A stretch of DNA of 64,000 nucleotides from Carya illinoinensis (taxonomy: Eukaryota; Streptophyta; Magnoliopsida; Fagales; Juglandaceae): assembly GCF_018687715.1 (NCBI RefSeq), contig NC_056759.1, positions 6,239,501-6,303,500 on the forward strand. The letters are read 5' to 3'. The position numbers and the translations under genes were made by a program. This document shows positions 14,801 through 63,241 of the stretch, in pieces (the first letter of the stretch is position 1; each line of letters starts with the position of its first letter). Under the pieces are notes generated by a model that searched no databases, was not told the DNA's origin, and saw only the letters and a list, made by a program, of their open reading frames with translations.

Positions 14801-17800
14801 TGTAATTTCTCACACACCACAAAGAAAGATTCTATATATGGCAAGATGTTCTGAGAGCCTGGAGGGAGTGGAGTCACTGCACCAGAGGGTTTAGAGGCTG
14901 ACATTTTAGATGAAGTCAACAAATCAGGTGCCGAGTCTGAATAAGTCTCTATTTTGCTTATGCAAGTGCTCAGATCCAGCCACAGAGGCTCCAAAGCTGC
15001 ATTTATGTCTCGCACCTGAGAAAGAGCGGCTGTATATTCCTTTTCAGGAATAATTTGTAGATCATTCTCTTTCTCACTCATTGAAGCAACAAGAGAGCTT
15101 AATGCCTGCAGAACCCTTAATATTGCAGCTCCACCAGAGGATGTTGTGCTGAGGAGTGCTTCCACAGCTTCACCAAACATGTGTAACTCATCTACAGCAG
15201 ATGAAGTCAAGTTTTGAATGGCCCCAGTAAGCTCAGTAGCAAACAGATGACAATGAGTTGGAGCATTTGCCACCAACTTCTTCATTACCTCCGCCACTAG
15301 AGTATATGCATTGTCTGACAGTCTGGGTGTATCATGTAATTTGTTAAGCCAAATGTACAAGGTCAAAATCACATCCACTCTCAATGAAGAATTCAAACCA
15401 AATGTCTAATGCAGGCTGTCACAATGAATTAATAGAATCTACAGTACGGGCATCAGAGAATTATTTGTTGATTATGCATTGATTGTTGGATGAATAAGCA
15501 AGGAACATGACCACTATAAAAGTCTGGACACAGAATGAGTGATGTGTGAACCAAACAAAATACGTAACAGAAGCTTTCCAACAAAAATGTAATTGCCCAA
15601 ACATATAGATGAATGTATGGAACTGGAAACAGAATGGACAATACTAAAAAATGAATAGAAATCCAACAATCAAGCTTTTGGTATTCAAAGGTATAACAAT
15701 TCATACGATATAATACCACAAAAAATGAAATTTAATAGGCCAAAAGCAGCATCATACCCCTCTCGTGCAAGCAATGAGCATAGAAGTCGGAGTTCTGCTT
15801 GTGGTAGGTTAAGCAATACAGCTTGCGGATCAAATTCCTTGCACACACCAGTGGTGCTGAGCTTGGAGATATCAGTGTCCTTGGACGATGCTGCAACATC
15901 TGAAGAAATTTGACCAGATTCTCTACTTATTCCAACATCTGATGTTACACTTTCTGGACCAGATGGTTGCTCAGATGCAGATGCCCGAGATTTGTCAGAT
16001 ACTGATTTACTTTCAGCATTATTAATGATGACCTCCAATAAGTTAAGAAGCTGAAAAAGAACCAGACGGTAAAGCCTAATGAACACATCTAAATTAACAA
16101 TTGTAAGAAAACCAAATAAAACTTCATGCAAAACATCACCTGTTCAAGATGGGCTATACTCCTCAAATAAAGGGGTTGATTTAAGAGGTTCAAAAGCAAC
16201 GAAATGGATATATATCCTTTCCCATGATCACTCCTATCCATTCCATCATCTTCAACAACCATCACAGCTTTACCCCGTGCCCGATCAGTATTTTGTGTCT
16301 CCAGAACAGCAGGTCGAGGCAACCTAAACTGAAGCAAAATCTTTGCCACTGATGGGTGATTACGAGCCAAATAAGTAAGAGTTTCAAGAATACGCCGAGA
16401 CACCAAGGGAGGAACACCTATAAGAACAAAAAGGTTCATAAGAAGCTAATGGCAAGTTGCATGCTACTGCCACATGTCAAAACCACTAAAAACATTAGAA
16501 ATTTTTTTATTTATTTTTAATGCATAAATCCCTGATACTACAGAAAAGAAGTCTTTTGAACATCAGCAAAAATATATCAAGCATACAAACCAGAAAAAAA
16601 AAAATGAAAATACAAAAGAAATTTAATTTCTTTCATGCTTCTTTCCTGTCTATTTGAATGATAAACAAAGATTTAAACTCTCTCATGGCAAAACTCAAAC
16701 TGGGAAATAAACTTGGATAAAACATCAGATATAACACCCTATTCAACACTGGGTGACCAGGGCAACCTTTGAGGCACCAGGAGCTCTTATCACATATATC
16801 TCCTCAACAGAAAATCCAAGACCATGTTCCACCCATTCTTGAAAACAGCTCGACTCTAGTAATTACAGGAAGGGCAACCAAAACTTGCCCATCAAAGGAG
16901 TAGATTAAATAAGGGGTCTTACCATCAAAAGACTGAGGACGTGAATACATCACATTACTCTGACAAGCATAAAGCCGATAAGAAGGCTCACCAGCACTCA
17001 AGTTGTTAACATGCTTTCTTGTATCAAGCATTAACATGTCCATGAGAATCTTCACCATAGAACTTCTGGTTTCATGATGAGCACATAAATTCAGAAGCAG
17101 CCTCTGCAGCTGACCTTTGTACAGTGGCTGCAATATTTATGTCCATAAATGCATAGTTCATAAAGAATAGACATATAGGACATATCTAAATACCTATAAA
17201 AAAAAAAGGGCATATCTAAATAACCAAGATTATACCTGCACTACACGAAGCAACCTAATCATGGCATGCAGAGCATCTGTATCAACTAAAGGAGCTCCAT
17301 CGGCTTCAACTAGCTTAGCTCCCATTGACCTACGGGCAATGCTTCCCCCGGCTCTTTCCAGGCTGGACCCTATACCATCACCTCTTCTTGGAGTTTCACC
17401 TCTGCGATTCCTAGAGTACATACCAAAAAGGGTGCGACTGTAACGGTGTGCAAATCTTTCACGCAACCTGTTTGCCTCCGTAACAAGAGCTGGCGTCAGA
17501 TTTGCAAGGATAGCATCAGATGAAGTTAAGAGAACCTGATGATAAAACAGACAAAAAATTGAAGAGGCTCATTTCAATTCTACATTTGGTTTTACGAGTA
17601 ATGAATAAAGGACACTCCAAAAACCAATGTACCTCTTCTCGCAAATCTGAAGGAAAAGTTGCAATTATTGAGACCGTGTCCATTTCAACAGGTTGACCTT
17701 CCAGTTCCTGAGATTGATGTAGCCTTTGTGCTTGCTGCTGTGCCAGAACTTCTGCTCGTATGTCAGGGGGAAGGGCTGCAAGAAATTCTGGATCAATATC

Positions 17801-20800
17801 TCCGGAATTTTGTGGTTCAGCATTTGAGGGCGGAGCTGCTTGACCCTGTTGAGCTGAAAGAACCTCAGCACGCAGCTCCTCTGGAAGAGCATCCAGGAAT
17901 GCAGGATCAATTGCTCCAGGACCAGCATCACGGTTGAGTTGCTGCTCTGCTGCCGGACCAGCCTGATCCGCTTCTAGGCTGGAACCTTCTGAAACTTCAG
18001 TCACACTATGAAGGGACACATCTCTTCCATCAACAGGTGTAGAATTCACAAAAGAGACATTTGTCCTTCTAGAGCGAGCTGCCTGTTGATCACCCAAGGG
18101 CATTCTATCTGCAGAAGCTTGCCTTTCTCCACCATCATCATGGCCATCGGCACTTCCAATTTCGACATCAAGGCTTCGAAGGCTCTCACCCAAGGTCGCC
18201 CCACTTCCACTGCTTGCTTGGCTCACAGCTTCAACATCCCGTACAGCTGCATCATTGTGTTCAAACTGCATTTCAACAGATTGCAATTGCGAGCTGGCTG
18301 CATCAGTTCCATGTAGAGGTTCACTTGCGGCAGGCCTCAGATCAGCATTGCCAGAGCTATCAATTTCAACAGTTGAAGGTGGCATGCTACTAGTTTCATT
18401 GTTTTCAAAAGAAAAGTTGGTCCTTGCACCTGCTTCTGTTTCTTGCAACTGGCAAACTTCATCTTTGTTTTTAGGATCCTGTGCCATTGTGTTCTGGTCA
18501 GAAGGCTGCTCAAGGGCTGGTCGTCTCAATTGGGAAACTAGCAGCTCTTCAAGGCCATGTGGCACTAAACCTGCATTTGATCCACCACTTGGCTGGTTAT
18601 CATCCACCCACAAGTTCAAACGGTGTCCATGGCGCCCATCCCTCAGGGAACGGAAAATAGAATCCAAGCGTGACGAGGTGCTCTCCAAGTTCCTATCTGC
18701 AAAGACCATGTCACGTGCATTCTCTGCAGCAATGTGTTCCAGTATCAGAGACCAAGAATGCCAAATATTAAACCTAGAGGAAACAATTAAGCTAAAATAC
18801 AGGTAACAACAGAAACTGTAGTAAGAATTCAATTATTTCAAGGTCTAAAAACCATCCCTAGAAGAAGCTTACCAGATTGCCGAGGAGCAGCTGAGTGCAC
18901 AGATGAAGAAGGTGCCAGTAGAAGAGGATGCCTTGACGGGGTAACACTGTCACCACTTCTGCCCAAAAGACTGTAGATGGATGTAGTACGCCCTTCGCGT
19001 CTAGAACCAAAAACTTCAACTGGCATCACATGGAGAGCTTCATTGGAAAAACTATTGTCTCTACCAAAAGCCTCAATATGGTCTAAAACATTTATTCCAT
19101 TTATGCCCTCCTCCAGCCTCAGTATTACTCCATCCTCATCATCCTCGTCATCCTCTTCTTCCTCCATTATTTCTTCATCAAAATCATCATCATCAATTTC
19201 ATGATCATCTTGATCTGTGTCAGGATGGGGAAGATGGTGGACTTCATCTTCTTCCAGATCATTATGTTCCTCCTCATCCTCATCTTCATCTTCATCCACT
19301 TCATCCCCATCATCCCCAGACATCTCCTCATCATCATCTTCATCAATATTTTCTTGTCCACGACGGATTTCAAATTGTATTCCCACCGTATCAATTCCAT
19401 TTTCAAGACCCCTCACATCATCAGAGGTTTCATGCATATAGTCATCCCCATTAGCAGGACCAAAACCTCCATCAAGATCTTGATCGTGTTCCATGTCATC
19501 TGTAACAGCCTCAGAGCCACCGTAAGGTTGGACAGCATTATACGACCCAATGTTGTCAGCTGGCACAGAATCAGGATTGAACTGAGCTGCAGCTTCCACA
19601 GACTGAGATACATCACCACTATTATCCATTCTTGCAGATTCAGTAAGATCGGGAGTTTTTGTTGAATTATCATCCTTCTCTATGTTGGAATCAGCAGAAT
19701 GGATATATTCCTTTGTTACCAACTCCAGAGCTTTAATTAGACCAGTAACAACTTTAGGTGAGTCAGCATGGTCCAGATCCAAAACTTGAAGAGTTTGAGT
19801 CAATGACCTAACCAGACCAACATCTATGAAAGTGGCAGAAGCTTCTGCTAAAATGTATGAACCAGTAGGTGAACGAGCACCTAGTACATCATTAAGCAGA
19901 TCGACAAAAGCTGGTATATTGTTTCCTGGCGGGCTAAAACCATTGCACGAATTAACAAAGTCATTGAATATATAATTGCTCTCTGTTAGAACTCTCCTTC
20001 TTGCTTCAGTGGAACGGACACAAGATGCCACCAAAAACTGGCTAGCCCTGGTTGCTAGTTTATGCCTCCAGTCACCATCTATTTTCTTGTCCTTTTTTAA
20101 ACTCCGAGAATATGGAAGAAACTTGTGAAGAATGTGATGGAATATTCCACCAGCATACACACCAGCAGGACCTTTTTGTTGAGGACAACGGCAACTACTA
20201 ACTTCAGCATCCTTCCGAAGCAAAATGTGAACAGATGAAGCATACATCAGCATAATCTCCGTCAAAAGCTTTAATATGAATACAATTTTTGCAAGTGACG
20301 CAGAAGCTTCATCCCCATTGGCTTGATTATTCTCTTCAGGCATAGTGGCAACGGCTTTTCCTTTCTCCTTAATAGCTGCAGCATCAATGTCCATGTCAGT
20401 TGACGATGGATCAAGGACATCTGAAACCACATCATCTTTCAGGGGAGGAACAAAAGTACAGACAGAATCTAAAAGAAGCTCAATCACGTTTATAAAGCTC
20501 TGTGGAGATTTTCTATGAACTTTGACACTCTTTAAATTTGTATCATTAAGTTTTCCATGCCCATTCCCAGAAGCAACTGGATTCACATTACTTGAAGCAA
20601 CTTTCCCATCAGCAGTTTGTTGTTTATCTTTCTCCAGTGATTTCTCCTTCTCCTTCTCCTTCTCTTTGTACTTGTCTTTGTCATGATCTTTCAGCAAGAC
20701 AATATAGTGCCTTTCACCGACCATCTCAACTTGGCAAACAGACTGAGCAGCCTGCATAAAGACCACTGGATCCCGTGAAATGACGGAATTTAAATTTGAC

Positions 20801-23800
20801 AGGAAGTTACGTGCAGGGATCCTTCCATTCGTATGTCTATTGGTGGCAGCCACAAAGCTGTGCCTTATCTCAGATTCCATTGCTTGCTGTAGGGTTTGCG
20901 GATCTTCAAGAATATGACGGATGATATTAGCAGCCACATTATCAAACCCAGGAAAGAGGCTAATTGTTGGCAAAGAAAGCAGTAAACTCAGTCCCCCAGC
21001 ATCAAGAAAACTAATAGCAACAGAATGAGTTCTAGTGAGAGTAGAGCACAGTTGGAGAACAGCATGCATTGTCTCAGCGGGAAGCTGGTTCCTGATACAA
21101 CTGCAAGCAATCTCAATAAGTCTCTTCTGCTCATTTATATCAGTATGCTTCGGAACTAATCCCAATGCGGACCGCAACCTGGTTTGCTTATCCTCATCAA
21201 TGGTGAGAGATGTTTGGTGGTTATTAGCAGTGTCCTGCTTCAACTGCTCCACAATTTCAGAGTTCAATTTTTTATTCACCTGCAACAGCCGATCAACAGC
21301 AAGAAAAGCAGTTGTCACCCACATAGGAACCTGGCATTTCTCCATTCCAACTGATCCAGAACACCATTGCAAAAGTAGATCTGCAGCAACTGCAACCAGA
21401 CCATTCATTGTGGCAAGTTCTCGTGACACTTCATCTTCATGAAAAAGTAGAGCAAGAACATGAAAAAGACTAGATACCATGGCAGCATTTTCGCTTTCAG
21501 AAATCAAAGTACAATCCTTCAGCCGATCAACAAGAAAGGAGATGACATTTGACCTATATTGTCCATCATTTTGGGAGCATATCATCATGAGCAGGTCTCG
21601 AACTGGAAAAACAATAGATTCCTTCGTCTGCAGGAGCCGAGTACATGTAGATAACAACTCCTCAACAGGAGGAAGTTGCACCATCTCTTCTTCAAGCTGT
21701 TGAGTATCTTCATTTGTGCTCACTTCCTTTGTGTCTGATGCAGCATTCCCAAGGGACATGGCAAGTGCACGAGCAAGTTCGTCATCTTCTTGAGCATCCT
21801 CTGGATGGGAGAACAACCACTCCATTGCCAATTCCACACTATTTGACCCAACTCGCCTGAGAGCTTCCTCCGCACGAGACCTGGAAAAACCCATCTCTAC
21901 AATTGTTGAAATATCAGTCTCATTAGGAGGAGGTCCAGTTAAGCGAGCACCAGTGTTGCTACTGACGTTTTTCACTTCAATCCCAGAATAGACATGCCTA
22001 ATTATAGAAATTACCAAAGTAATTAAATCATTACTGCAATCAACAAAGTAGGGGTGAGTCCAAACAGGAAGCACTGCCTTCAGCACCATGGACTGGAGAA
22101 CCTTCACAAAAATCTCAGCATCCCGTGGAAAGGGAACATTGCTATTTGTTAGAGGTTGGGCAAGCAAGTGTTTTGTAAACGGGGTTAATATAAAAGATGA
22201 GGTCACCAAGTGGTCCATGAGTTTCCCATAGCTAGATAGAGGACCATAAATCCATGAATTATCAGTAACTCCCTTTTCATCCTGCTTTAAGATCCCATCA
22301 TCAGTTTCCATGGGAGATGCGGGAGTGCGGTTCACAGCAAACAGCAATTGACTGGTAGCTTCAAATGTTGTCAAAACTGATTGAATTACACCATGTCCAT
22401 ACAAGCAATTCAGTAAAACAGGATTACAGGAATCTGGCCTGTCCAGTAGAAAGCCATCAATGAAATCGATAACCTTTCCAAAGTATCGGCACTTTGTTGA
22501 TATGGATGCCTCGGTTCCAGAAGGATTAACATGACCCCCAAAATTCATGTGATCCAGAGCAATAGATGCAACAGTAGAAGCCACTGATTTTGATGAAGGA
22601 GAAACATTCAAAATATCATCCCGTCGACGAGAGGGAAGCAACATTACCTTCCCCAACTCTTGAAACAAATGGGTAATGTGAAAAGAAAGAGACCTCATCA
22701 TGTCGCAGCAAGAAGTATGGTAGGATCTCTGCTTACTAACATCTCCAGCAGCATCTGAAGAAGCAGAATGATGGACTTGATTACCAGCTCCAAATCGCAA
22801 GTTTGAAGAACTATTGGCACGTCTTTGTTGGGAACTAGAGGCACGACCAAGATCACGGTATGTGTTTAAAATGTCAAAAAACTGGGATTCAATACTCCAC
22901 CCCGATGTCCTCCTCCTCAATAATGGATCGAGGAACTGCCTGAAAGAGTTGAATCTTTGGTCTTGAGTTTCATTTGTAACCAATTCAGACTGTTGTGAGT
23001 CAGATGTAGAAGCAGCACCATCATCCTCCACTTCAGGCTTGGCATCTTCAAGAAGAGAAATATGCCACAGAACTTCTCGATGGACCCTCCCAATATCTTC
23101 CAGAACATCCTTGCTACCATGTCCAAATTCTGCAAGCAACGCACTCGCCCAACGGTTGTCTTTTGAGGCAGCAAGAAATAGAAGGAACTCCACAAGAAAA
23201 AGTGCAGAAAAGATTCTATCATCCTGTGGCATATTTGGATCTGGCAAAAAGGTCCCTGAAACGACTACAAATCCAGTCAAAGCTATTTTTAGATGGTCTC
23301 TGAGAGAGGAACAGAAAGCATGTGCCAGTGGAGTAGAGTGATTCTGAGTAAAACCCTTGAAAACCATGGTGCTATGCAAAGCAATAGACATTGCATCAGA
23401 TGACTGTGCAATACTAGGCCGTAAAAGAAGCATCATTAAGGCTTCAATTCCTGACTTCTCCACAAATAGCCGACATGTTTCAGAGTTTTCCATAGTCCTG
23501 TGAACCAGTACCATCAAATGAAAGATGCAAAGTTGAATGAACTGCTCATCGTTGATCCCTCCTGAAGCCGAATCAACTGCACCAACCAAACAGCAATGGC
23601 TTTCGTTGCCTTTGTCTTCAGAATCCATATCCATTGAAGTGCTCTCATTCAATTTCCCAGATGATCCTGAGCAGCTACTGTCCCCAAAAGAAGCAACTTT
23701 GTTAACAATTTCTATGATTGTATCAACACCAGTGCTTCTCAAAGAAGATACATGGCGCAAAAGCTCTTCCACTGCATTTGCCAAAGGAACAATAGCATCA

Positions 23801-26800
23801 TTCATTGGTGTAACATATTTCTTACTGCTGAAAATGTCAACAAGGAACCGTAATGCTGAAGTTTCTTTCACTGCCTCTAAGCCTTTTTCATTAAGACAAA
23901 TGGCACCAAGACCATTAGGAACACATGTAAGAGCCTTTGATGAAGGACGTATACCAGCTGCTATCGATGATAAAAAAGCAGCTGGAAGACCCATTTCAAA
24001 CAAAACAGGAAAACAAGTTGGGTCTTTGTGGATCATCTCGCTCATAACAGTCACTGCTGAGTGATAAATATCACCCCCAAATTTATCTATATTGCCAAAT
24101 ATCAACGTAAGAGTAGCAGGTAAAGAACTATCATGGGAATGTTGGGATCTGGTAGTGTTAGTAGGAGCATATGTAGCAGATCCAAGCGCCTTCAGTGAAA
24201 CCTTAATGAGCCTCTTCTGGGAGTACAGCTGATCATCACCGTTTCTGGAGCTCTCACTAATGATCATCGAGTTTTCAAGAGCCCCAGTCAAACCGATAAC
24301 CCTATTTACTTCTATTTGCAGTCTCTGAGCCAAAAGCTCCACTCCCCCCAACTCTTTAAACAGGGAAACAGCTGAACTACTGTAATCCATGAGCTTTTGT
24401 AGAGTTTTAACAGCATAACAGACCAGATGCATGTGTGTAGGATCAGAATCCTCCAAAAATGGTAGGAACGTAGGAACCATGCCTGACCCCCTAATATTAC
24501 TCCCAGAACTCGAGGATGAAACAACATGAAGCAAATAGAACTGAAGAAGTGCTTCAACAAAGGCAAGAGATGATGGATCATTGGAGACCTTCAGCGATAA
24601 AACAGCCCGCTGGAGCACATTCAGGAGTATCATCCGGTTACCGCCAGCAAAACTGATACTAGATCCACTCAAAATCCGTGCCCGCTCATGAAAAGACATG
24701 TATGCAGCTAATTGAGCTCCCAGGGCAAGCATTGCAAGTGTCCTAATGGTTCCAGAAACAGCTTCCTCAGACCGCACAATCCTGATTAACTCATTCGTAT
24801 ACTCTGGCTCATTAGCAAAAAATGAAACAAGGTCATCATGAGCATCACTAGACTGAACAAGCACAATGAATGCAAGAAGGCAAATCCTGCTGTACAGCCT
24901 GCATATTCTGCGAGAACGGAAGGCATGAGCATATCTAATTCTTGTCAACAATGAAAACCGTAGCTCGGTAGGTACATTATATTGCTCAATGCACTGTTTC
25001 AACAGTGAGAGATCATCCTCCTCCTGTAAATGAAGATCCGGTATATGTATAACTCTCAAGCTAGAAGTATTTTGATTGCTATTTTCCTTGCTTCTTTGAG
25101 CATTAAGCCCGTGCATCTCAAAATAGAGAGTAGAGCCTATCCTGCAGTTAGACTTGTCACAGTCATTTTCTAAATCAGCTGGGAACAAACAAAGCCCTTC
25201 TTCTTGGGTTCTCTCGTTTGCCATTACACATGAATACAAACCCAAACCCTCCTCCTTGCTTCCCCATCCTTGGGCTAGAGACAAGAGAGAGCTGTTTACT
25301 GAGCCACAACCAATCAACTTTCCCCCTCCATGCAACATAGAGGAGTTTATTTTCACTAGTGCAGATAGAGTTTCAAGTGTAGCTATAAGAATCTCTGGGT
25401 CAGTTGATGAAAGCAGGAGCTTGAAATTCTGAAGAGGACAAACAGTATAACATATCAGGCAAGAACTAGTAGCAGATGCTCATATAAGCATAATACCACC
25501 TAAAGCTAACATGCCTTGAAATAAGAGATCCAGGCAATTAGTTTCATACCCAAATCTAGACATTAAACATGACCTGTGACACTAAAATCAACATACCTCT
25601 AAGCCATCAAATGAACTCTTGTTATGGCAATTCTCAAGAATTGTTTGCATCACTCGTAAAATTTGTAGAACTGCCTGCTTGGGAAATAGACTATCACCTT
25701 CTAAAATTTTATCTGATAACAGGAGGTCATTCCTAGAAGAAAGGTATGTCTTGAAGTATGTATCAAAGTGCAGAAACAGCGGTCTCCAATGGTGAAAGTT
25801 ACCCTGAAAAGCAACAAAAAAATAAGCAAATAAAAAAAAAAAAAAAACTATGCACAGCAGTACTAGCAGAAGTAGCATTCTATTACCTTACCATACTCCC
25901 ATTGAAAACCCAAAAGAGGTATTGTTATATCTTGCAATGGACACTGGATCACCTTATCGATAAACAATTTGATTTTTGGAGGCTGCAAGCAATGATAAAG
26001 AGAAAAATTTTTAGCATTTTTTTGGTATACATATTATTTTTCTTTTAGCATGTTAAGGGTAAAATAAAAATAAAATGGACGCAAAGGGCCTATGCAACTT
26101 TATTCAATCCTCATAAGGAACCAATCCATTCTTACATCCATACATAAATATAATATATATATATATTGGATAAATAATCTCATCTAATACAACCCAAGAT
26201 AATCTAGCAGTAGTCACTAGAGTGAAGGACCCAAAACTTCCAATTCCTGACGCCATGCAAGGGATGCACAGTCCAAGTACAGCTAGAAAACCTGCATACA
26301 TCACTGCAATGGCATCATCGGTAAATTCAACACTACAGTAATGCCAATTTTCTGACTTTGTTTTGGTCATATCTAATAGTATGTGCAACAATCTTTTTCT
26401 TTTTTCTTTTTCAATTCAACTCAGCCACCCATGCCAGATTTAAATCACAATCACTCCAAGTGGAGGACAAGAGACCATTTGACCTGACAACCATTGGCAA
26501 AGACTTAAAAGGGAAAAAACCACCATCAATATGAGCTATTTCAGAAAAAAATGTGCCAGGTATACAATTTAACCCCTAGGGGTTGGCTCAAGTGGTAAAG
26601 GCCTTGGGCTTGGGGGTATGCTCCCCCCAGGTCTAAGGTTCAAATCCCCTTGATGCAAACAATCTCTAAGGGTCATCAGACTGGGGGATTTTCCCCTTGA
26701 ATTACCAAAGGTGCACTTGCGGGAAACTCATTGCCAAGGGCCTACACACCCCCGGGATTAGTTGGGACACTGTTCCTAGACACCCGGTCCCAATCCAAAA

Positions 26801-32892: not shown

Positions 32893-33479
32893 ATTGCCTT
32901 TCAGCTTTGTGTTTGAATTATTAGTATTTCTTTTGTTCATATAATGGGCTTTTGAAATCTAGTTTTGTTCTTTGCATGATCAATGTTTTTTGTCATAATC
33001 TATATTGTGAGAGAAAATCCAGGTCATGAGTTCAATCTTTTGTGGGCTCAATTTCAAGTTCAATTCATATTATTGGGCCTTTGGGCTAATATACAGTTTT
33101 TTAAGGAGATGTTCAGTTGTATTTCTTTTAATAATGAAGGTAATGCCACAGCATCCTTATTATTTAAAAGAATACATATAAAAAAATATATATATTGAAA
33201 TCTCATTGTAATTAAATCATAGGTTTTAAGGATTTATCCCTACAGGAAAATCTTTAATTTTTGTGATTTAATTAGTATAAGAAAATGATTTTCGGTATTA
33301 ACAGTTAAATTTATCTTCTGCCTACAGGTGTGGATAGTTTTATTTGTTAATATTTGGAATAATTTGTCTTATAAATAAAGATGAGTAAATTTATGCTGTT
33401 ATGCAACCTTTTCCCACAGGAAGGTTAAAATTTACTTGAATTCATAGCATTAAAGTTTTTCTTGGTTTTGCAGCTGTTG

Positions 33480-34981
33480 TACCACAATCCTTAGCTGATG
33501 GTGTTTATTTTATTCCAATACTTGATGGCACTAATTTTTCTGACTGGAAAGATTCGGTTCAATTTACCTTGGGGTATATGGACCTTGACTATGCACTCCG
33601 AGTGGAGCAACCACCTACTGCCACTGATACGGATGCACAGGAAGTTATTGAAAATCGTCAATGGTGGGAGCGATCTAATCGCCTAAGTCTAATGCTCATA
33701 AAGTCTCGCATGAGTAAGAGCATTAGAGGTTCTATTGGTGATTGCGCTACAATTAAGGAATTAATGCAGGCAATTGAGGAACAGTTTATTCGCTCTGACA
33801 AGGCTTTAGCTAGCACTCTTATCAGACAATTCACTACTAAAGCCTTTGACAGTTCTAAGGGTATGCGTGCATACATTACAGAAATGAGAGATATTGTTTC
33901 TCAACTTAAGGGCTTAAAGATAGAGATATCTGAGCCATTCTTGGTCCATTTCATCCTTGACTCATTGCCATCTGAGTATGGACCTTTCAAGATCTCTTAT
34001 AACACACATAAGGAAAACTGGTCAGTTACGGATCTTCTGACCATGTGTGTGCAAGAAGAGGAAAGGATGAAGCATGATCGACCTGAAAGTGCTAATATGG
34101 TCGCAAATGATAAAGTTAAGACCGAGAAGGGCCAAAGTGGACCTCAAAAGAAAAGGAAGCATAATGTGCCATCAAAATCCAATGGATCTAATGGCAAAAA
34201 GGTAACCTGCTTCTTTTGCAAGAAAGAGGGACATGTAAAGAAGAGTTGCATCAAGTATAAAGAGTGGCTTGAAAAGAAAGGTAACTCTATATCTCTTGTG
34301 TGTCATGAATCTTTTTTCATTGATGCTCCTAAAAATTCATGGTGGATTGACTCTGGTTCTTCAATTCATATTGTGAATACATTGCAGGGTTTTCTCATCA
34401 GAAGGAAACCAACAACAAGTGAACTTTGGGTTTTCACCGGAAATAAATGGCGTTCACAAGTTGTTGCAGTTGGAGTTTTTAGAGTGATTCTCAAATCGGG
34501 ACATGTTTTGGATTTAAATAATATTTTTTATATTCCAGAATTTTGTAGAAATTTAATTTCTGTTTCCAAACTTGTTATCAAAGGATATAGTTTCCTTTTT
34601 GAAAATTTTATGACTGTTTTTAAGAATAAAATTCTTGTTGGTTCTGGAACTTTAGTTGATAACCTTTTTAAATTAGATATTCATCCCGATTTTGAAGAGA
34701 ATTATCTATCTCTGCATTCAGTTGGCATTAAGAGAAACCTTTTGAATGAAAAATCTTCTCTACTATGGCATAAGAGATTGGGACACATTTCTATAGAGAG
34801 GATGAGACGGTTAGTAAAAGAAGAGGTCCTACAGGATCTTGATTTTACTGACTTCAAGAATTGTGTGGACTGCATAAAGGGCAAGCAAACCATCAATAAT
34901 TCTAAGGTTCAAGAAGGAGCTCAAGTGTTCTTGAGATTATACACACAGATATATGTGGACCATTTTCTACCCCTTGCCTGA
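33480..34981 (+). pseudogene. Copia gag, protease and start of integrase
   Basis: The frame is open from about 33480 without an early ATG; the first ATG in frame is at 33569. It encodes a UBN2/gag-type domain, a zinc knuckle (CFFCKKEGHVKKSC, C-x2-C-x4-H-x4-C) near residue 210, and the protease motif WWIDSGSSIHI near residue 255. A GAG-pre-integrase segment ending LWHKRLGHISIERM follows. A TTTTGCAG just before the open region looks like an intron acceptor. The frame shifts near 34930, and translation would stop at 34981. Confidence 0.85.
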
Positions 34982-37594
34982 ATGGTCAGAGATATTTTAT
35001 CTCATTTATTGACGACTATTCTAGGTATATGTATCTTTATCTTCTGAATGAGAAGGCTCAAGCACTAGATGTTTTCAAAACCTATAAAGCAGAAGTAGAG
35101 AATCAAAGTGAAAAGAAAATCAAGATCGTAAGATCTGATAGAGGAGGGGAATATTATGGTAGGTACACAGAACATGGATAAATTAAGGGTCCATTTGCAA
35201 ATTTCCTTCAAGAAGAATGCATTGTTGCCCAATATTCAATGCCTGGTACACCATCACAAAATGGTGTTGCAGAAAGAAGGAATCGTACGCTAATGGATAT
35301 GGTAAGAAGCATGATTAGTAAATCTAATATGCAACTTTCCTTGTGGAGTGAAGCTCTTAAAACTGCAGTGTATATATTGAATAGGGTTCCATCCAAATCT
35401 ATCTCTAAGACATCTTTCGAGTTGTGGAAAGGGTGGAAACCTAGTTTAAATCATATACACATATGGGGTTGTCCTGCTGAAGTTAGGATTTATAATCCTA
35501 ACATAAAGAAGTTAGATCCAAGGACAACTAGCGGTTTCTTTATTGGGTATTCAAATAACTCCAAAGGATATAGATTTTATTGTCCCAATAATAGCCCTCG
35601 AATTGTTGAATCTAAAAATGTAAAATTTCTTGAAGATGTTGAACTTAGTGGGAGTGTGAATCCTCAAGAGGTCACTTTTGAGGAAACACCTGAACATGCT
35701 ACTTTGCCTTCTTTTGGAGAAAGAATGGTTGTCTTAAGGCAAAATAGATCGCAAGATCATGTAATGACACCAATTTAAGTACAGCATGTTCCCGTACATG
35801 AGCTTCAATCTGAAGTTATTCCACATTTACAGTCTGAGCCAATTGAGTCATCTCCAAATGATGAAGTAATGGCTCTAAGAAGATCCTCAAGAATACGTAG
35901 GCCTGCTATTCCAGATGATTACATTGTATACCTAACTGAGTCTGATTTTAACATTGGACTTCCGGAAAACCCAATTACGTTTTCACAAGTCATGAGTGGA
36001 GATAAATCTACATTTTGGTTGGATGCCATGAAAAATGAGTTAGAATCCATTTATAAGAACCAAGTCTGGGATCTCGTCGAATTACCAGAAGGGGCGGCAA
36101 CAATTGGCTGCAAATGGGTTTTTAAAACCAAACGAGATTCTTCTGGTAATGTCGAACAATATAAGGCTAGACTTGTCGCTAAAGGATTCACTCAGAGAGA
36201 AGGCATTTGGTAATGTCGAACGATATAAGGCTAGACTTGTTGCTAAAGGATTCACTCAGAAAGAAGGCATTGATTATCATGAAACCTTCTCTCCGGTCTC
36301 TAAGAAGGATTCGTTGAGGATAATCATGGCTTTAGTAGCTCATTTTGATTTAAAGTTACATCAAATGGATGTGAAAATGGCTTTTCTTAATGGGGATCTT
36401 GATGAAGTGGTATACATGAAACAACCTGAAGGTTTCAGTAACGACAGTCAGAAAGTATGTAAATTGAAGAAGTCTCTTTATGGACTAAAACAAGCTTCCC
36501 GTCAATAGTATTTAAAGTTTCACAAGATTATTATCTCATACGGTTTTATTGAGAATCTTGTTGATCAATGTATATACTTTAAAGTCAATGGGAGCAAATA
36601 CATTTTCTTAGTCCTATATGTAGATGATATTCTTCTTGCAAGCAATGATTTGGGATTGTTACATGAGACTAAACAATTTATCTCCCAAAACTTTGAAATG
36701 AAGGATATGGGTGAAACCTCTTATGTCATTGGCATAGAGATTCACAGAGACAGGAAACAAAGAGTCTTAAGACTGTCTCAAAAAGGCCTACATTGAAAAA
36801 GTTTTACAGAGATTCGGTATGAAAGATTGTAAAGCCTCTGTAGTTCCCATAATCAAGGTGATAAATTTCATAAAGGACAATCACTCGAAAATGCATTGGA
36901 ACAAGAGCAGATGAAAAGTGTACCTTATGCATCTGCAGTGGGTAGCTTGATGTATGCTCAAGTTTGTACCCGTCCAGACATATGTCTAGCAGTTGGATTA
37001 TTGGGTCGCTATCAAAGTAACACAGGACTTCAATATTGGATAGCTGCAAAGAAGGTGATGCGGTATTTGCAAGGAATCAATAATTACATGCTAACCTACA
37101 GGCATACAGAAAATTTACAAGTGGTTGACTATTCAGATTCGGATTTTGCCGGTTGTGTAGACACCAGAAAGTCTACTTTTGGATATATCTTTCTTCTTGC
37201 TGAAGGAGCTATATCTTGGAAGAGTACGAAGCAATCTATAGTTGCTACGTCTACTATGAAGGCATAATTTATTGCGTGCTATGAAGCAACGACACAAGCC
37301 ATATGGTTGAAGAATTTTATTTCTGGTCTTAAAATTGTCGATTCCATTCAAAGACCAATAAAGATTATTTGTGATAATACCGCTGCAATGTTCTTCTCAA
37401 AAAACAATAAGAGCGGAAGCAGAAGCAAGCATATTGACATAAAGTATTTAAGTGTGAGAGAGAGCATCAAATATAATGTGGTGTATATTGAGCATACCAG
37501 TACAGATTTGATGTTAGCTGATCCAATGACCAAAGGTTTACCGGTAAAACAGTTTCAGGGTCATGTGGATCGTATGGGTCTAACTAAAGTGTAA
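34935..37594 (+). pseudogene. Copia integrase, reverse transcriptase and RNase H, interrupted
   Basis: Integrase motifs (SFIDDYSRYMYLY, SDRGGEY, PGTPSQNGVAERRNRT) are broken by a stop near 35178. A stop at 35776-35778 precedes the reverse transcriptase. A 64-bp tandem duplication at 36145-36272 shifts the frame. A stop follows KQASRQ at 36506-36508. The active-site YVDDILL is at about 36622, and a frameshift follows near 36790. The RNase H segment (36896-37594) has one TAA at 37265-37267 and ends at 37594. Confidence 0.88.
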
Positions 37595-44500: not shown

Positions 44501-44638
44501 TAGCTGTACCTTGTCGAACTGGACAAGAACTTGTATGGCCAGGTTTGGATTGAGAGCACCACTCTGGACCATCTCGTCCAAAGTCTCGGTCAGGCACATC
44601 CCGATCGTCGACCTCCGGTACAGTTCGAACGTAGCCAT
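41556..44638 (-). CDS. TFIIA-S: Transcription initiation factor IIA small (gamma) subunit
   Basis: Three coding exons on minus (44638-44510, 44400-44350, 41696-41556) give exactly 106 residues, the usual length in plants. The N-terminus MATFELYRRSTIGMCLTETL is the helical-bundle domain. SMTEALETQVKSKVSIK and GHLHTYRFCDNVWTFILQDA form the beta-barrel part, and the protein ends in KIVACDSKLLTQ. With the large TFIIA subunit it stabilises TBP on the TATA box in the RNA polymerase II preinitiation complex. Intron 2 is long (2.65 kb) and AT-rich. A 5' UTR intron is likely: a GTTTTCTCC donor near 44762 and a GTGTGCAG acceptor just before TGACGGAGAATGG. All exon junctions keep phase, and no defect is visible. 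Confidence 0.97.
41697..44349 (-). other. Intron 2 of TFIIA-S
   Basis: A 2.65-kb intron. It contains small open frames (for example 42919-43236 on minus and 43396-43695 on plus) that match no family I know and have no splice or start context. I see no transposon termini in it. Confidence 0.6.
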
Positions 44639-44989
44639 TCTCCGTCACTGCACACGATCTGAACAGTCACACACTTCAAAAATTGAGAATTTAAATACAT
44701 ACAGAAATCGAAGCATTTTGAATCGAAAAAAGAAAACACGACTATGAATAATGGAGAAAACCTAGCCGACTGTAGAGGTCAAAAGAGAGAGAGATTAGCA
44801 ATCAAAGAAATGATAAAACGTAACAAATGGGAAAATTGATGGAGGAATCGAAGGTTACGAGAGGATCGGATGACGAGGATTTGGAGGAGCTTTTCGTCTG
44901 AAGCTCTCTCTCGTTAAACGTTTGCTCCCGCAGGAATTTGGTGGGAGTGATTTGGGGCGTTTTATACCCTAGCTTTTGTAGCTTGGGGG

Positions 44990-44997: not shown

Positions 44998-45266
44998 GCC
45001 GCGAGAGATCTGGAAAAACGAAATGACGAACATACCCACAAAATTTATTCTAAGTAGGACTGTTCATACGGGCCGGATCCGGAACCCGGATAACCGGGAT
45101 TCTGGTTATGGGTTTCGGCCCGGATTTTATCCGGGTTGGAACCCGCATTGGACAGACCGGATTTATTCGGTCCGGACCCGGGTTTCAAACCCGGGTTCCG
45201 TATTAGTAACCCGGTGTAACCGGGTTTGTATAAATTGGAAAGAAAAAAAACCTAACCCGTCTTCTC

Positions 45267-45269
<3 letters not shown>

Positions 45270-45336
<67 letters not shown>
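45270..45336 (+). repeat. (CT)n microsatellite inside the hAT element
   Basis: More than 30 consecutive CT units, followed by an imperfect CTCTCTCT segment near 45353-45363. Confidence 0.95.
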
Positions 45337-45340
<4 letters not shown>

Positions 45341-45954
45341 CGAAACCCACCCCTCTCTCTCTCGTTCATCTGTGTGAAGTGTTCTATCTCACACCGAAAC
45401 CCAGGTCCCTCGGTTCCTCTGCAGTTTGATTGTTTCCGAGTTTGTGGGTTTCGTCTCAGTTGATGATGGCTTAAGCGCGAGGGTTTCGTCTCAGTTGATG
45501 ATGGGTTTCGTCTCATATTTTGAACACCTCAGCCACCACAAGTGCAAAAGGGGGTTACCGAACCTATGCTTGATTTTTTTTTTTTAATCTTTTTTTTGTT
45601 TACTTCAAGTGTTGTTCAATCTCTACCTCTAAATGGAGCTTTTGGGATTTGTTTGTTTTGTTCTCCGTTTTGTTTTGGTTTAGAACCTGTCAGATGGGGT
45701 TTTTATGGGTGTGCTAATTTTGTTCTGTTTTGTGTAGATCTGGTGAACTGGGTCTCTTTTTTGTGTACATTTTGGTGCCATATTTTGATAAGGAGAAAAT
45801 GTTTGCTTGAAATTAGTTTTGTCTCGAATTGATTTCTGGTGTTATATATGGTTTAGTGAATTTTGTTCTGATTGACCTTTACAACACTGCACAGTAGTCT
45901 CAAACAATAACATGCACCATCCCCAACTACCGTATTTACAAAAACATGATTGTT

Positions 45955-46440
45955 TGAACAAGAATTTGAGAGGAGCTGATTTGCAGGAACCCTCGAGTCC
46001 TCGACATCTTTCATTCAGAACAAGGACCAAAGTCAGTGATAAAACAGGGTGGACTCATAATTTTCTATATCCTAGCGATGGTAGTAGAGGTTTTTGGTGG
46101 TGTGAAATCCAACAGCCTTACAGTTATCACAGATGCAGCCCACTTGCTCTCTGATGTTGGAGGGTTCTCTTTTTACTGTATGGACTTCAAGTTTGGTGGC
46201 AACATCACAGTGCAATATTCATCTCGAGATTTTTGGTGCACTACTATCAGCTAGCGTAGCTCATATGGCTGATCTCTAGGATTTTTAATTTATGAAGTCA
46301 TTGACAGAATACTTTACAAAAATGTAAAGATGAATAGAACACCCATGTTTACAATTGCAGTATTAGGATTTATTATCTTCTGTCTGATGTTTGCAGGGCT
46401 TGGTTACAATCACTACCACCAAAAAATTATGCTTTTAAAG
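45955..46440 (+). pseudogene. Captured fragment of a cation-efflux (MTP1/ZAT-type) gene
   Basis: The frame at 46036-46254 reads FYILAMVVEVFGGVKSNSL followed by TDAAHLLSDVGGF. This matches transmembrane helices 1-2 of plant vacuolar zinc transporters, including the HD/DD metal-site motif TDAAHLLSD. Further matches lie in other frames: an EIFGALLS-like piece near 46225, IYEVIDRIL near 46290 and a helix ending GLGYNHYHQ near 46400. Frameshifts and stops show it is not functional as a transporter. The upstream stretch 45600-45870 may be the captured gene's 5' UTR or its intron. Confidence 0.75.
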
Positions 46441-46632
46441 CCTAAAAAAAAACGGGTTCAATCCGGAACCAAGAATCCGGGTTTTACCAAACCCGGGTTC
46501 ATCCGGGTTCCGGCCCAAATCTGACCCGGATTAACCCGGTCCGGGTTCCGGCCCGGATTTCAAATCCGGGTTCCGGTTTGGGTATACCCGGGTTCCCGGG
46601 TCGGAACCCGGATGAACAACCCTAATTCTAAG

Positions 46633-48837: not shown

Positions 48838-50396
48838 CTAGGAAGGTGGGCCTTCAAAACGAATGTAGTCATACATAATCCCTTGAAGAGGGCCGGTGAC
48901 CGATGTTTGTGTAAGGAAAATGGTATTGTCCCCAATCAGGAGCAAAGCTCCTGGTACTTCAACGTTGTACAGCCTATACAGTCCATGGATTCCATGCCTG
49001 GCAATTGTGTTGTCATGCCCAATTACTCCAGTTGTAAACGTGGGAGGATTTGCTTCAGGAGGATCGTTTACCCGAACCTTTTTCAAGGGAAATGGAAAAT
49101 AAAATTAAGGCATAACATATTGGATTATTTAATGAATAAATCAATCAATTATGCATGTATATGCTCATCATGATTAACGCTGCTTAAGGTCCAAACCTGT
49201 AATTCAGAGTCATTCACTGTTGCAAGTGCTAATCGCAGTTTATAGACTCCAATTGTATCTACTCGGTGAAGTTGGAACTTGATTTGCCATGTGGTTCCTT
49301 GATATGTGTCATCATCTACTTTCCTAACATACTCCAACAAAAATTGACAAATGATAATTTGCAGTTCTAAAGTGTGTAAGTGTCGCACACTCCTTTTTAA
49401 AAAAATAGATAAGTATGAGATCAATTCACATTAAAAAAAATGGATAAGTATGAGACCTTACACCGCTTTAATCAAATTTAGCCTGTAGTGTATATTACCC
49501 GACCATACGTGCGGGGGGTGGGGTTTTCACACCCTCCCCCACATCCCGGGGGCGGGGTGCGAGGCAGAATTTTCATTCCGCCTCGCCTCATGTTCATTTA
49601 AAATGTGGATTACATTTTACTAAGTTTAAAAGTTATTTCTAGGTCCAAAAGTGATTAAAAATATATTTTTAGATCTAAATTGTAAATTTAAATTTGTAAA
49701 TATGACTATAATTTAAAAATTATGATATTTTTAAATTTGCTAGTGCATATTTTGTTTAAGTTGTAGTATAGTAGTTTTTAAACTATATAGTTTTTAAATT
49801 TTCTAGTGCATATTTTGTGAATAAGTCTAACAAATTGTAATATACTTATTTATATATACATAATTTGTAAAAATATAAATATATATATATATTTATATAT
49901 ATAAATATTTATTTTTTTATATATAATATATATAAGGTGGGGTGGGGAGGAGTGCGAGATGCGGGGCCTCGCTGCCCACCACCAGTGTATACATGTGAAG
50001 AACTGTTCGTACCTGGTAACCTGAGCAAAAAACCAGTCTTTTCTATAATCATTAACGCCCACTCTGTAAACCAAATCTCCATTTGGATATAGATCTGCAT
50101 ATCTTTCCCACAATCCATATTGTCTAAACCTGTAAAAATGATGAAATATTTTAGTATGAAAAATAATATATATTTTTTCTAAAATGAAAGACAAGTATAT
50201 ATAAGAAAACGAAAAATAGCTGTATATATATAATATACCTGTCGGGATGATTCACATAAAGCTTATTGATATACTTTGGATTAGGATCGGGGATGTAGAA
50301 TTCAGCAGCAGAGCAATTTGGAATCCCTATTTCCCACATTGTAGGACCATCTCTTGGTGGCTTAAATATTAGGTCTCCCAAGTTAATATCACAACC

Positions 50397-50435
<39 letters not shown>

Positions 50436-60208: not shown

Positions 60209-63200
60209 TCACTGCCTCCCCCAAAGTGTATCTCCCTCGCGCGACTGAAATGAAGCCATGAAACTCCTCAACAGAGCATCAGTTTCAGTTTGACGCTCCA
60301 CAACCACTCGCATTTCTTCCCTTACACGGTCTAGTTGACTCTTGTAGTCCTCTGCATCTTTCTTATGTTTTTCCACTAACAGGGCATACTCTTTAGCTTG
60401 TAACATGTCCTTTTCTCTTGTAGACTCTGGTATCACCATCTCTCCGAGGCCTCGTGCATATCCTGGCCTATGCCCAAGTACCTCCCTAAAGACAGCCTTA
60501 GCTGCCTCATCAGTACGATTCTCAGGGGCTAAGTCATCCATCTTTCCAGCCATCTCCTTCTGCACATAGTGTAAAATCAGTTACTCATCATGTTTCTGTT
60601 ATGAAACCATGGTACAGATTTTCACCATTATTTTAACTATGCCTTTTAGTCTATCTGGCATGAAAGATTTGAGATGGCTTACATAAATATCTTCACTGGC
60701 ATCTGTGACAAATCTATCATTCTTCTTTGACCAACGGACTGCTTTGTAGAAGTCCACTAAGTTTGCTCCTTCGGATCGCTATTTGTTAATAAAACATCCA
60801 ATTTTGTTACATGGTTCAACAACCATAAGGAATAAAGGCCTTAAGACATATAGTACATAACAAATTCTGCAGTGAATAAATTAGTGTACAGCCACAGTTA
60901 CAATATCATTTTCCCATTGACTAGATGTGCTTTGGATTTTTCATCAATTTTACAACACTTTGTCTTACCCTATGATTCAAATGTAATGCATATATCCATT
61001 GCAAGTTAATAATCTAGTGGCAAGTCTAACGTCTTCGATCATGTTTTTAACTATCACCTGCAACCATTTGTCCATGAAAATTCATAACAATACCATAACT
61101 GGTTGCACAGCTAATATAGACATAGCATCAACTCTTGTGGAAAACAGTGCTTTATTTTATCACCGTACATGCATCTGACAACAACCCCTTTGATCTCTCC
61201 CCCCCACATTGCGCATACCTGGAGGTACATAACCCCTAACCTAGCTTGTATATGGCCTTATATTTTTGCATGCCACCGTAATACACAAATATGCTAATCT
61301 CACATTTGTCCTATTTCTGATAAATCTAATCTCATCATTATATGGCTGTCTCTGGAAATTGCACATAAGTATGGCAAATCTTTGACCACATAATCCAGTT
61401 AGATTTTAAAACAGAATTTTTTAACATGCAAAAATCTGTTGGTTTACAATTACTGCAGCAACTTACAATTACTACCTCCAATCACTGATCGTAACAGAAG
61501 GCTGTGTGTTTAAAAATTTTCCACATGAAATTGTGATTTGCAGCTTAAGATTACCATAATCAGCTTGAATAAATTAGAAGCAAACCAACCCAAGCCCTAT
61601 ACCTTTTCCTCTAGGATCCTCACAAACGATTTCCGCCCTGCAGTGTGATTAATCTTCAGCTTCATACGATTCTCCTTATTTATGTTTGAGATTTTCTGCC
61701 ATCATGCAAGTAAACAGGTTATTTTTCTGCCAACTATATGGACCTTTGTCAAGACTTTTCTATATTGTATATACAAAATGGTAGCCCAATAAGCAACAGC
61801 TTTAACATACCTTGAAGTGATCACTTCCCCATCGGCCACATAGCTTAACCCATACCAAGGGCTCGACCAAGCTTGTCCCACCAGCCAATGCCTCCTCATG
61901 GCTCGCATATGCCAAATACTTCTTGTGAAGCTCATGGTGGAATGCGTTAAATCTCTTACGCAGCTGCTTCCAAACTGCCAACCGATGGTTCTTAAGTTCC
62001 CAATCTAATTCAAAGTCACCCTACACAAAAAATAAACTATGGTCATCTAACCCATAGTTAAGTGGCCTTCCTTATACCAAGGCACCTACAGCTGTGTATA
62101 TTGTCTTACCCTGACCCTGTCAATCAACTCATCCTTAACGGACTTGGGTACGTCCGTCCATCTTGCAAAGCTCATGTCCGCATGATGTTTTAAAATCCAC
62201 GTTACTCGTGTTGTAAAGAATGAGGCATTCTCACAGCAAGGTGCTGTCTCCCCATCATTTATTCTCAAAGGTATTTTCCCGTGCCTCCTTAATTTATCGA
62301 ACTCGGTACACTTAGCGGGCCCACGTCCACGTTTCTGTTGTCCAACATTTGTTACGGGAACTGCAGCTTCGTCCTCTGTCATTAAAATGTGAAAATAATG
62401 CAGCAATTATTTACTGACAACAATATAAAATTACCCAAAACAGCAGGCTGTAATATATTGTATTGCAGGTCACTTGATTCTAAAGGTACATGAATAACAC
62501 AACTAATGCCTTACCAATATTGTCTCTAGTAGAAATGGCTCCTGTTATCGGATTGGTTCTGGGGTTATTAATTTCATGTATCGGTGGCTGTGTTGACTCA
62601 TCATAGTCCTCTCCTTGACCCTCTCGCTGACTCCATCGCCAAATATTGTCTCTATTAGTGTCTGCTGTCGGTATTGGATTGGCGTAGACAGGATATCTTT
62701 CTATGGAGGGTGGCTGTGTTGACTCATCATGCATTTCCCCATTAACCTCTCGCATTATCCATCGCCAAATAGGGTCTCTATTAGTGTCCACTGTTGGTAT
62801 TGGATTGCCATTGACAGTATTTCTGAATACGGATGGTGGCTGTGTTGACTCATCATAGCTCTCGCCTTGACCCTCTCGCTGACTCCATCGCCATATATTG
62901 TCCCTATTAGTGTCATGAGTCGATATTGGATCAGCATTGACAGTATTTCCTTCTTTGGAGGGTGGTTGTGTTGAGTCATCAAATCTCTCGTCTTGATCCT
63001 CTAGCTGACTCCATCTCGAAATACACCCTCTATTAGTGTCCGCTGTTGGTATTGGGTTGTCGTTTGCATGAATTCTTTCATGTAATTGTGGCTGTGTTGA
63101 CTCATCAGAGCTCTCGCCTTGACCCTCTTGCTGACTCCATCGGCAAATAAGTGGAGGCCGTGGTCGGCCTCTTGAAAAAGGTCTACCTCGTCTTTTAAAT

Positions 63201-63241
63201 TGTCGAACTCCTCTACCCCTTGCTCTCCCACTTTGTTCCAT
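60209..63241 (-). CDS. Transposase_24-like (plant En/Spm-associated) protein, 580 aa
   Basis: Six exons on minus (63241-62515, 62375-62110, 62020-61811, 61695-61603, 60778-60683, 60559-60209) join in frame to 580 residues with no internal stop. The N-terminus is Arg/Gly-rich (MEQSGRARGRGVRQFKRRGR), followed by about five copies of a 42-residue repeat with IWRWSQREGQGE and DESTQPP. The conserved part starts KRGRGPAKCTEFDKLRRHGK and includes INDGETAPCCENASFFTTRV and WELKNHRLAVWKQLRKRF. It also has HKKYLAYASHEEALAGGTSL and NKENRMKLKINHTAGRKSFV. The C-terminus is a Lys/Glu-rich coiled coil. In this family the protein is thought to bind transposon ends, like TNPA. Intactness suggests recent activity. 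The exon at 59574-59735 could be an alternative 3' end. Confidence 0.85.
62530..63160 (-). repeat. 126-bp tandem repeat in the CACTA protein gene
   Basis: The phrase GGCTGTGTTGACTCATCA (with variants) recurs near 62586, 62712, 62838, 62964 and 63090, an exact 126-bp period. It corresponds to 42 residues per unit (DESTQPP... NPIPTADTNR...WRWSQ). The units have diverged mainly by substitutions, and the length is preserved in frame. Confidence 0.9.

Follow-up and report, generated by a model that had tools for sequence, protein, structure and literature searches.

The interval 45055-46624 is very probably a non-autonomous DNA transposon of the hAT superfamily (Pack-hAT type), and its interior holds a fragment of a copy of the zinc-transporter gene MTPB. 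The element is 1,570 bp long, its coordinates are exact, and it is flanked by an exact 8-bp target-site duplication, ATTCTAAG. The exact duplication and inverted ends that had been proposed for this unit in the original prediction were confirmed, and the 18-bp ends TAGGACTGTTCATACGGG and TAGGGTTGTTCATCCGGG were identical at 15 of 18 positions. The features of the element and its left flank are listed in Table 1; positions refer to the window, that is, the whole 64-kb stretch of DNA that was analysed.

Table 1. Features of the element and the adjoining TFIIA gamma gene, in window positions.
Feature	Position	Strand	Basis
TFIIA gamma subunit gene, first coding stretch	44513..44638	-	PF02268, E 2.4e-19
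TATAAAA, putative TATA box of the TFIIA gamma gene	44960..44966	-	motif only
Left target-site duplication ATTCTAAG	45047..45054	.	exact repeat
Left terminal inverted repeat TAGGACTGTTCATACGGG	45055..45072	+	sequence, end-pattern scan
Left subterminal region, rich in CCGGGTT/AACCCGG	45073..45230	.	motif counts
Filler: (CT)n tract at ~45270-45336, then UTR-like and T-rich intron-like sequence (from reading)	45231..45893	+	no Pfam match above cut-off
Decayed MTPB fragment	45894..46419	+	frame-aware alignment; equals residues 43-213 of Juglans MTPB (P0007)
Net 8-nt loss relative to intact MTPB codons	46164..46166	+	same out-of-frame reading follows in P0001 and P0003
Right subterminal region, rich in CCGGGTT/AACCCGG, including the inward TIR-like stretch 46490-46513	46453..46606	.	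motif counts
Right terminal inverted repeat TAGGGTTGTTCATCCGGG (reverse complement of the right end)	46607..46624	-	sequence, end-pattern scan
Right target-site duplication ATTCTAAG	46625..46632	.	exact repeat

A hAT element is marked by ends of the TAGGG type, a target-site duplication of 8 bp and subterminal motifs in clusters, and hAT terminal inverted repeats start with T/CA..G. The element shows an 8-bp target-site duplication, short terminal inverted repeats (TAGGRYTGTTCATNCGGG, 15/18) and subterminal repeats at both ends; its membership in hAT is based on the ends and the duplication only. The sequence ATTCTAAG, which was also found at 29306 and 34899 outside the element, fits the hAT target-site consensus nTnnnnAn as well. 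A degenerate end pattern, a consensus built from the element's own two ends, matched the window twice at up to 3 mismatches, at the two element ends, and none of 100 shuffles gave at least two matches. All 16 occurrences of CCGGGTT/AACCCGG in the 64-kb window lay inside the element, within the terminal 180 bp of each side. Shorter motifs were enriched in the element but not exclusive to it: 20 of the 24 window occurrences of CCGGGT/ACCCGG were inside, as were 24 of 43 for CCCGG/CCGGG and 13 of 22 for CCGGAT/ATCCGG. Subterminal repeats of Hermes are bound by the BED domain of its transposase, according to a report on that system (PMC10368747), and by analogy the CCGGGTT/AACCCGG clusters here may be transposase binding sites.

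The six-frame Pfam scan of the whole element revealed no transposase domain, in agreement with what had been predicted. Cation_efflux was the sole match above the cut-off; Atrophin-1 and DUF3915 stayed below it and fell in reverse-strand frames of the presumed (CT)n tract. The element therefore has the composition of a Pack-TYPE transposon, with host gene sequence inside (the MTPB fragment) and no transposase domain. Assignment to a Helitron or a MULE was rejected, since the 8-bp duplication and the TAGGG ends fit hAT; MULEs form a superfamily distinct from hAT and have a target-site duplication of about 9 bp.

The cargo was delimited by frame-aware alignment with MTPB of Juglans microcarpa x regia (P0007). 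In this alignment, 108 of 164 aligned residues were identical with all three forward frames in use, and the score was 398, versus 31 to 37 in 10 of 10 shuffles. Four frame breaks were located, near 46002, 46165, 46259 and 46281. The alignments with two other MTPBs, P0009 and P0010, started only at 45992 and 45995, respectively, so the first ~100 bp of the fragment (45894-45991) are less sure and the secure core is 46015-46419. The Cation_efflux match (PF01545, E 6.2e-7, above the cut-off) was obtained with a single-frame translation of 45955-46452 in which stops were written as X, and the best solved-structure match of this stretch was an SLC30A4 chain (E 2.6e-8), one of the SLC30 zinc transporters. 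A profile search with a small alignment (A1), in which 7992 candidates were scored, gave 3573 hits, and the best 120 of them held metal tolerance protein B of many plants, including intact MTPB of Juglans, Quercus and other plants. Among the 122 proteins fetched, P0007 was the best intact tblastn match to the element (124 bits), next to an unnamed protein, P0015, with 123 bits. The closest named relatives of the fragment were from Carya and Juglans, so the host is probably a member of the Fagales, although such relatives do not prove it.

Within the zinc-transporter group, MTPB forms a branch next to MTP1/ZAT. The original prediction had described a hAT-type element with a transduplicated piece of an MTP/ZAT gene, readable as MTP1/ZAT in several frames. 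The non-autonomous hAT-type element holding MTP sequence, the three forward frames and the Cation_efflux match all bear this out, whereas the gene is refined to MTPB on the strength of the best intact match. The fragment derives from a gene for plant metal tolerance protein B, an SLC30-like member of the CDF family, and corresponds to residues 43-213 of Juglans MTPB. Unlike the intact protein, it is frame-broken, lacks the rest of the protein and is no working gene. A functional MTP gene was rejected as a candidate: the sequence has four frame breaks, reaches no further than the position corresponding to residue 213 out of 397, and does not offer the intact frame with transmembrane and C-terminal domains of a functional CDF transporter. 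In the 5' filler (45231-45893), only P0001 aligned before 46000 among the best 25 proteins listed, and the filler from 45763 onward was also present in P0001.

What is new here, as read from the sequences, is a frame break, a net 8-nt loss, common to the element, P0001 and Carya LOC122292736. P0001 is a 168-aa unnamed protein on an 840-bp contig, and P0003 is the protein of Carya illinoinensis LOC122292736; in both, the 8-nt loss was deduced from the reading frames of the proteins. After the break near 46165, the frame reads FYCMDFKFGGNITVQYSSR. The out-of-frame signature F.FGGNIT was found in 2 of the 122 fetched proteins, P0001 and P0003, and the other 120 were without it; the pattern for the in-frame reading was matched by 96 of the 122. 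Over a 58-residue stretch spanning the break, P0003 and the window agreed at 48 residues. The tail of P0003 aligned to residues 207-253 of P0007 (47 columns, 64% identity), beyond the end of the element's MTPB part at 213; as P0003 is a predicted gene product, some sequence may have been passed over in it as an intron. LOC122292736 itself is annotated as a 123-aa gene model with a Cation_efflux domain and, given the frame break that it has in common with the element, is probably an MTPB pseudogene.

Because the break is common to P0003 of Carya, which runs past the MTPB end of the element, the break probably predates the window copy, and that copy probably had a longer source. This source would have been either a pseudogene already or an earlier capture from which sequence was lost afterwards. 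We lean towards a longer MTPB copy, with the 8-nt loss already in it, as the origin of the piece, and not a functional gene at the time of capture.

Under a variant that is compatible with this main reading, an older and longer Pack-hAT would have taken up MTPB (with or before the 8-nt loss) when the window's plant and Carya had not yet separated. All three sequences, namely the window copy, P0001 and LOC122292736, would be descendants of that captured copy, and the window copy would have lost its 3' part. The frame break common to the three sequences is consistent with such a descent, as is the DNA that P0001 shares upstream of the MTPB part from 45763. However, the extra MTP sequence at the Carya locus fits a longer pseudogene equally, so we regard an older capture as possible but tentative. 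More tentative still is the wider proposal that a Pack-hAT lineage has carried the MTPB pseudogene fragment since before the split of the window's plant from pecan (Carya). In that case, the frame break would be a heritable tag, and the cargo would have been copied and annotated as a 'gene', LOC122292736, in another genome.

P0001 was compared with window positions 45763-46251 in one frame, including the part upstream of the MTPB fragment, and 146 of 163 residues were equal. Six of the 17 differences fell in one divergent block near the start of P0001. Among the remaining 11, six fit a G-to-A change in the window and five do not. The six compatible changes were four window stops at P0001 tryptophans and the residues at 46120 and 46228. 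At 46120, the window has threonine where P0001, P0003 and intact MTPBs have alanine (111 of 122 proteins with alanine, none with threonine), which indicates that the window state is derived there. At 46228, both P0003 and P0001 have glycine, but this residue may sit at a predicted splice junction. These G-to-A-like changes may reflect a methylated, silenced past of the element, which is probably an old insertion and silent.

The possibility of a multi-copy family, raised in the original prediction, was borne out in part. P0001 is a second sequence in which both the frame break and the DNA upstream of the MTPB part recur, and it may be either a further copy or the orthologous locus of another plant. 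The end-pattern scan and blastn detected no further copy with these ends elsewhere in the 64-kb window; blastn gave two short weak matches between the element and the rest of the window (E 0.084 and 0.29). The end pattern had no match in viral_contigs and matched nine stretches in genome_contigs, all titled as bacteria. Since ~30 exact matches are expected by chance with 17 specified bases in 257 billion bases on two strands, these nine are meaningless. In viral_contigs, P0001 gave one pattern match and no relative, and an interior 27-mer of the element gave none.

The structure of the right arm bears on how the cargo was acquired. In the tandem-insertion model stated for Pack-TYPE elements in PMC8903248, two separate small hAT elements would have flanked an MTPB pseudogene and later become mobile as one unit. 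Of the 24 positions of the inward TIR-like stretch 46490-46513, 17 agree with the right end, and 46497-46516 pairs with 46598-46617 at 95%, as a remnant of an inner end might. However, two other places in the same orientation, 45178 and 46553, reach 16/24 against the right end as well, so that 17/24 barely exceeds the level set by the subterminal repeats. Moreover, no internal end within 3 mismatches was found in the element, and the left arm contained no outward end of at least 16/24. We consider two flanking insertions unlikely.

The preferred reading is a single Pack-hAT unit with decayed MTPB cargo. The left duplication lies 80 bp beyond the TATAAAA motif and 408 bp beyond the TFIIA-gamma start codon, which is on the opposite strand. 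A hAT transposase from another element would have cut and pasted the whole unit into the TFIIA-gamma promoter region. The cargo would have been passive during mobilisation, and the MTPB fragment would yield no working transporter. Given these distances, we suggest that an effect on the host, if there is any, is likelier on the TFIIA-gamma promoter than on the MTPB gene. The idea that small RNAs from the fragment act on the functional parent gene, put forward in the original prediction, was unsupported and is very improbable. The fragment is identical to the best intact MTPB found at only 108 of 164 residues, and with about one third of the aligned residues differing, near-perfect 21-nt matches are probably few.

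How often chance alone would yield such ends was estimated by scanning the window for an exact 8-bp duplication with at least 15 of 18 matching positions in the ends, at a spacing of 200-5000 bp. The scan gave 27 rows, 26 of which lay in one AT-repeat tract (49879-50433); the remaining one was the element. The AT-rich repeat adjoining the element is reminiscent of repeats of the walnut family. In 30 shuffles with letters permuted inside 200-bp blocks, five comparable structures appeared in total, one of which passed the low-complexity filter. Ends plus duplication are therefore expected about once in 30 windows (once in six if unfiltered), and by themselves are only moderately improbable. The case for an element is firm because the CCGGGTT/AACCCGG subterminal pattern adds to them. 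An MTPB pseudogene in place beside unrelated repeats, which the five shuffled structures (one not of low complexity) would allow, is exceedingly unlikely in view of the confinement of all 16 CCGGGTT/AACCCGG motifs to the two ends of the element and of an end sequence and a duplication length that are both hAT-like.

Several other features were observed in the window. A 2213-aa open frame at 18838-25479 (-) contains DUF908, DUF913 and UBA domains, as do plant UPL1/UPL2 ubiquitin ligases; the domain scan of the open frame 14191-15405 gave no HECT match. Remains of a Copia-type LTR retrotransposon lie at 33440-37594 (+), with gag, GAG-pre-integrase, Pol_BBD and SH3 in separate open frames (scanned to 35778). 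In a LINE-type element at 5129-7544 (-), the endonuclease/exonuclease domain and the reverse transcriptase domain lie in different frames. Open frames at 62086-63241 (-) contain a DELIDRVR stretch and repeats of the motif RWSQREGQGE..DESTQPP; they had no Pfam match at E 0.001 and resemble plant CACTA-type transposon proteins.

Capture of gene sequence by a hAT element, which the original prediction presented as less commonly described, is not a novelty. It was described for grapevine Hatvine-6 in 2008 (PMC2528002) and for maize and rice Pack-hAT elements in 2022 (PMC8903248). The former reports a hAT family with a variable interior that often corresponds to genic sequence of the host, intronic as well as exonic; the latter is a survey that gives 8-nt target-site duplications for Pack-hAT elements and proposes a capture mechanism. 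The term 'Pack-hAT' is in print (PMC8903248, PMC8277862). A hAT element with MTPB cargo is thus a fairly ordinary example of gene-fragment capture of a kind already known. Our literature search, whose coverage left out most subscription papers, found no report of hAT capture of MTPB and no Pack-TYPE work on Juglans.

The element adds a well-bounded example of hAT gene-fragment capture. The frame break that it has in common with other sequences suggests that old pseudogene debris can be what is captured as a 'gene', and such debris may carry a gene annotation elsewhere. The site, 80 bp past a putative TATA box of TFIIA-gamma, makes a regulatory effect open to testing. Compared with known systems, the element resembles Pack-MULEs and gene-capturing CACTA transposons in having gene fragments between terminal repeats. 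It differs from CACTA in superfamily and ends, and the CACTA target-site duplication is given as 5 nt in PMC8903248. Like Hatvine-6, it is a hAT element with an interior derived from a host gene; however, Hatvine-6 elements are described as sharing transposase coding sequence (PMC2528002), and none is recognisable here. It is also like the Pack-hAT elements of PMC8903248, which are non-autonomous, with hAT-type ends, an 8-nt target-site duplication and captured coding DNA inside. The present element differs from those in its degraded cargo, which contains four frame breaks, including one in common with a Carya gene model.
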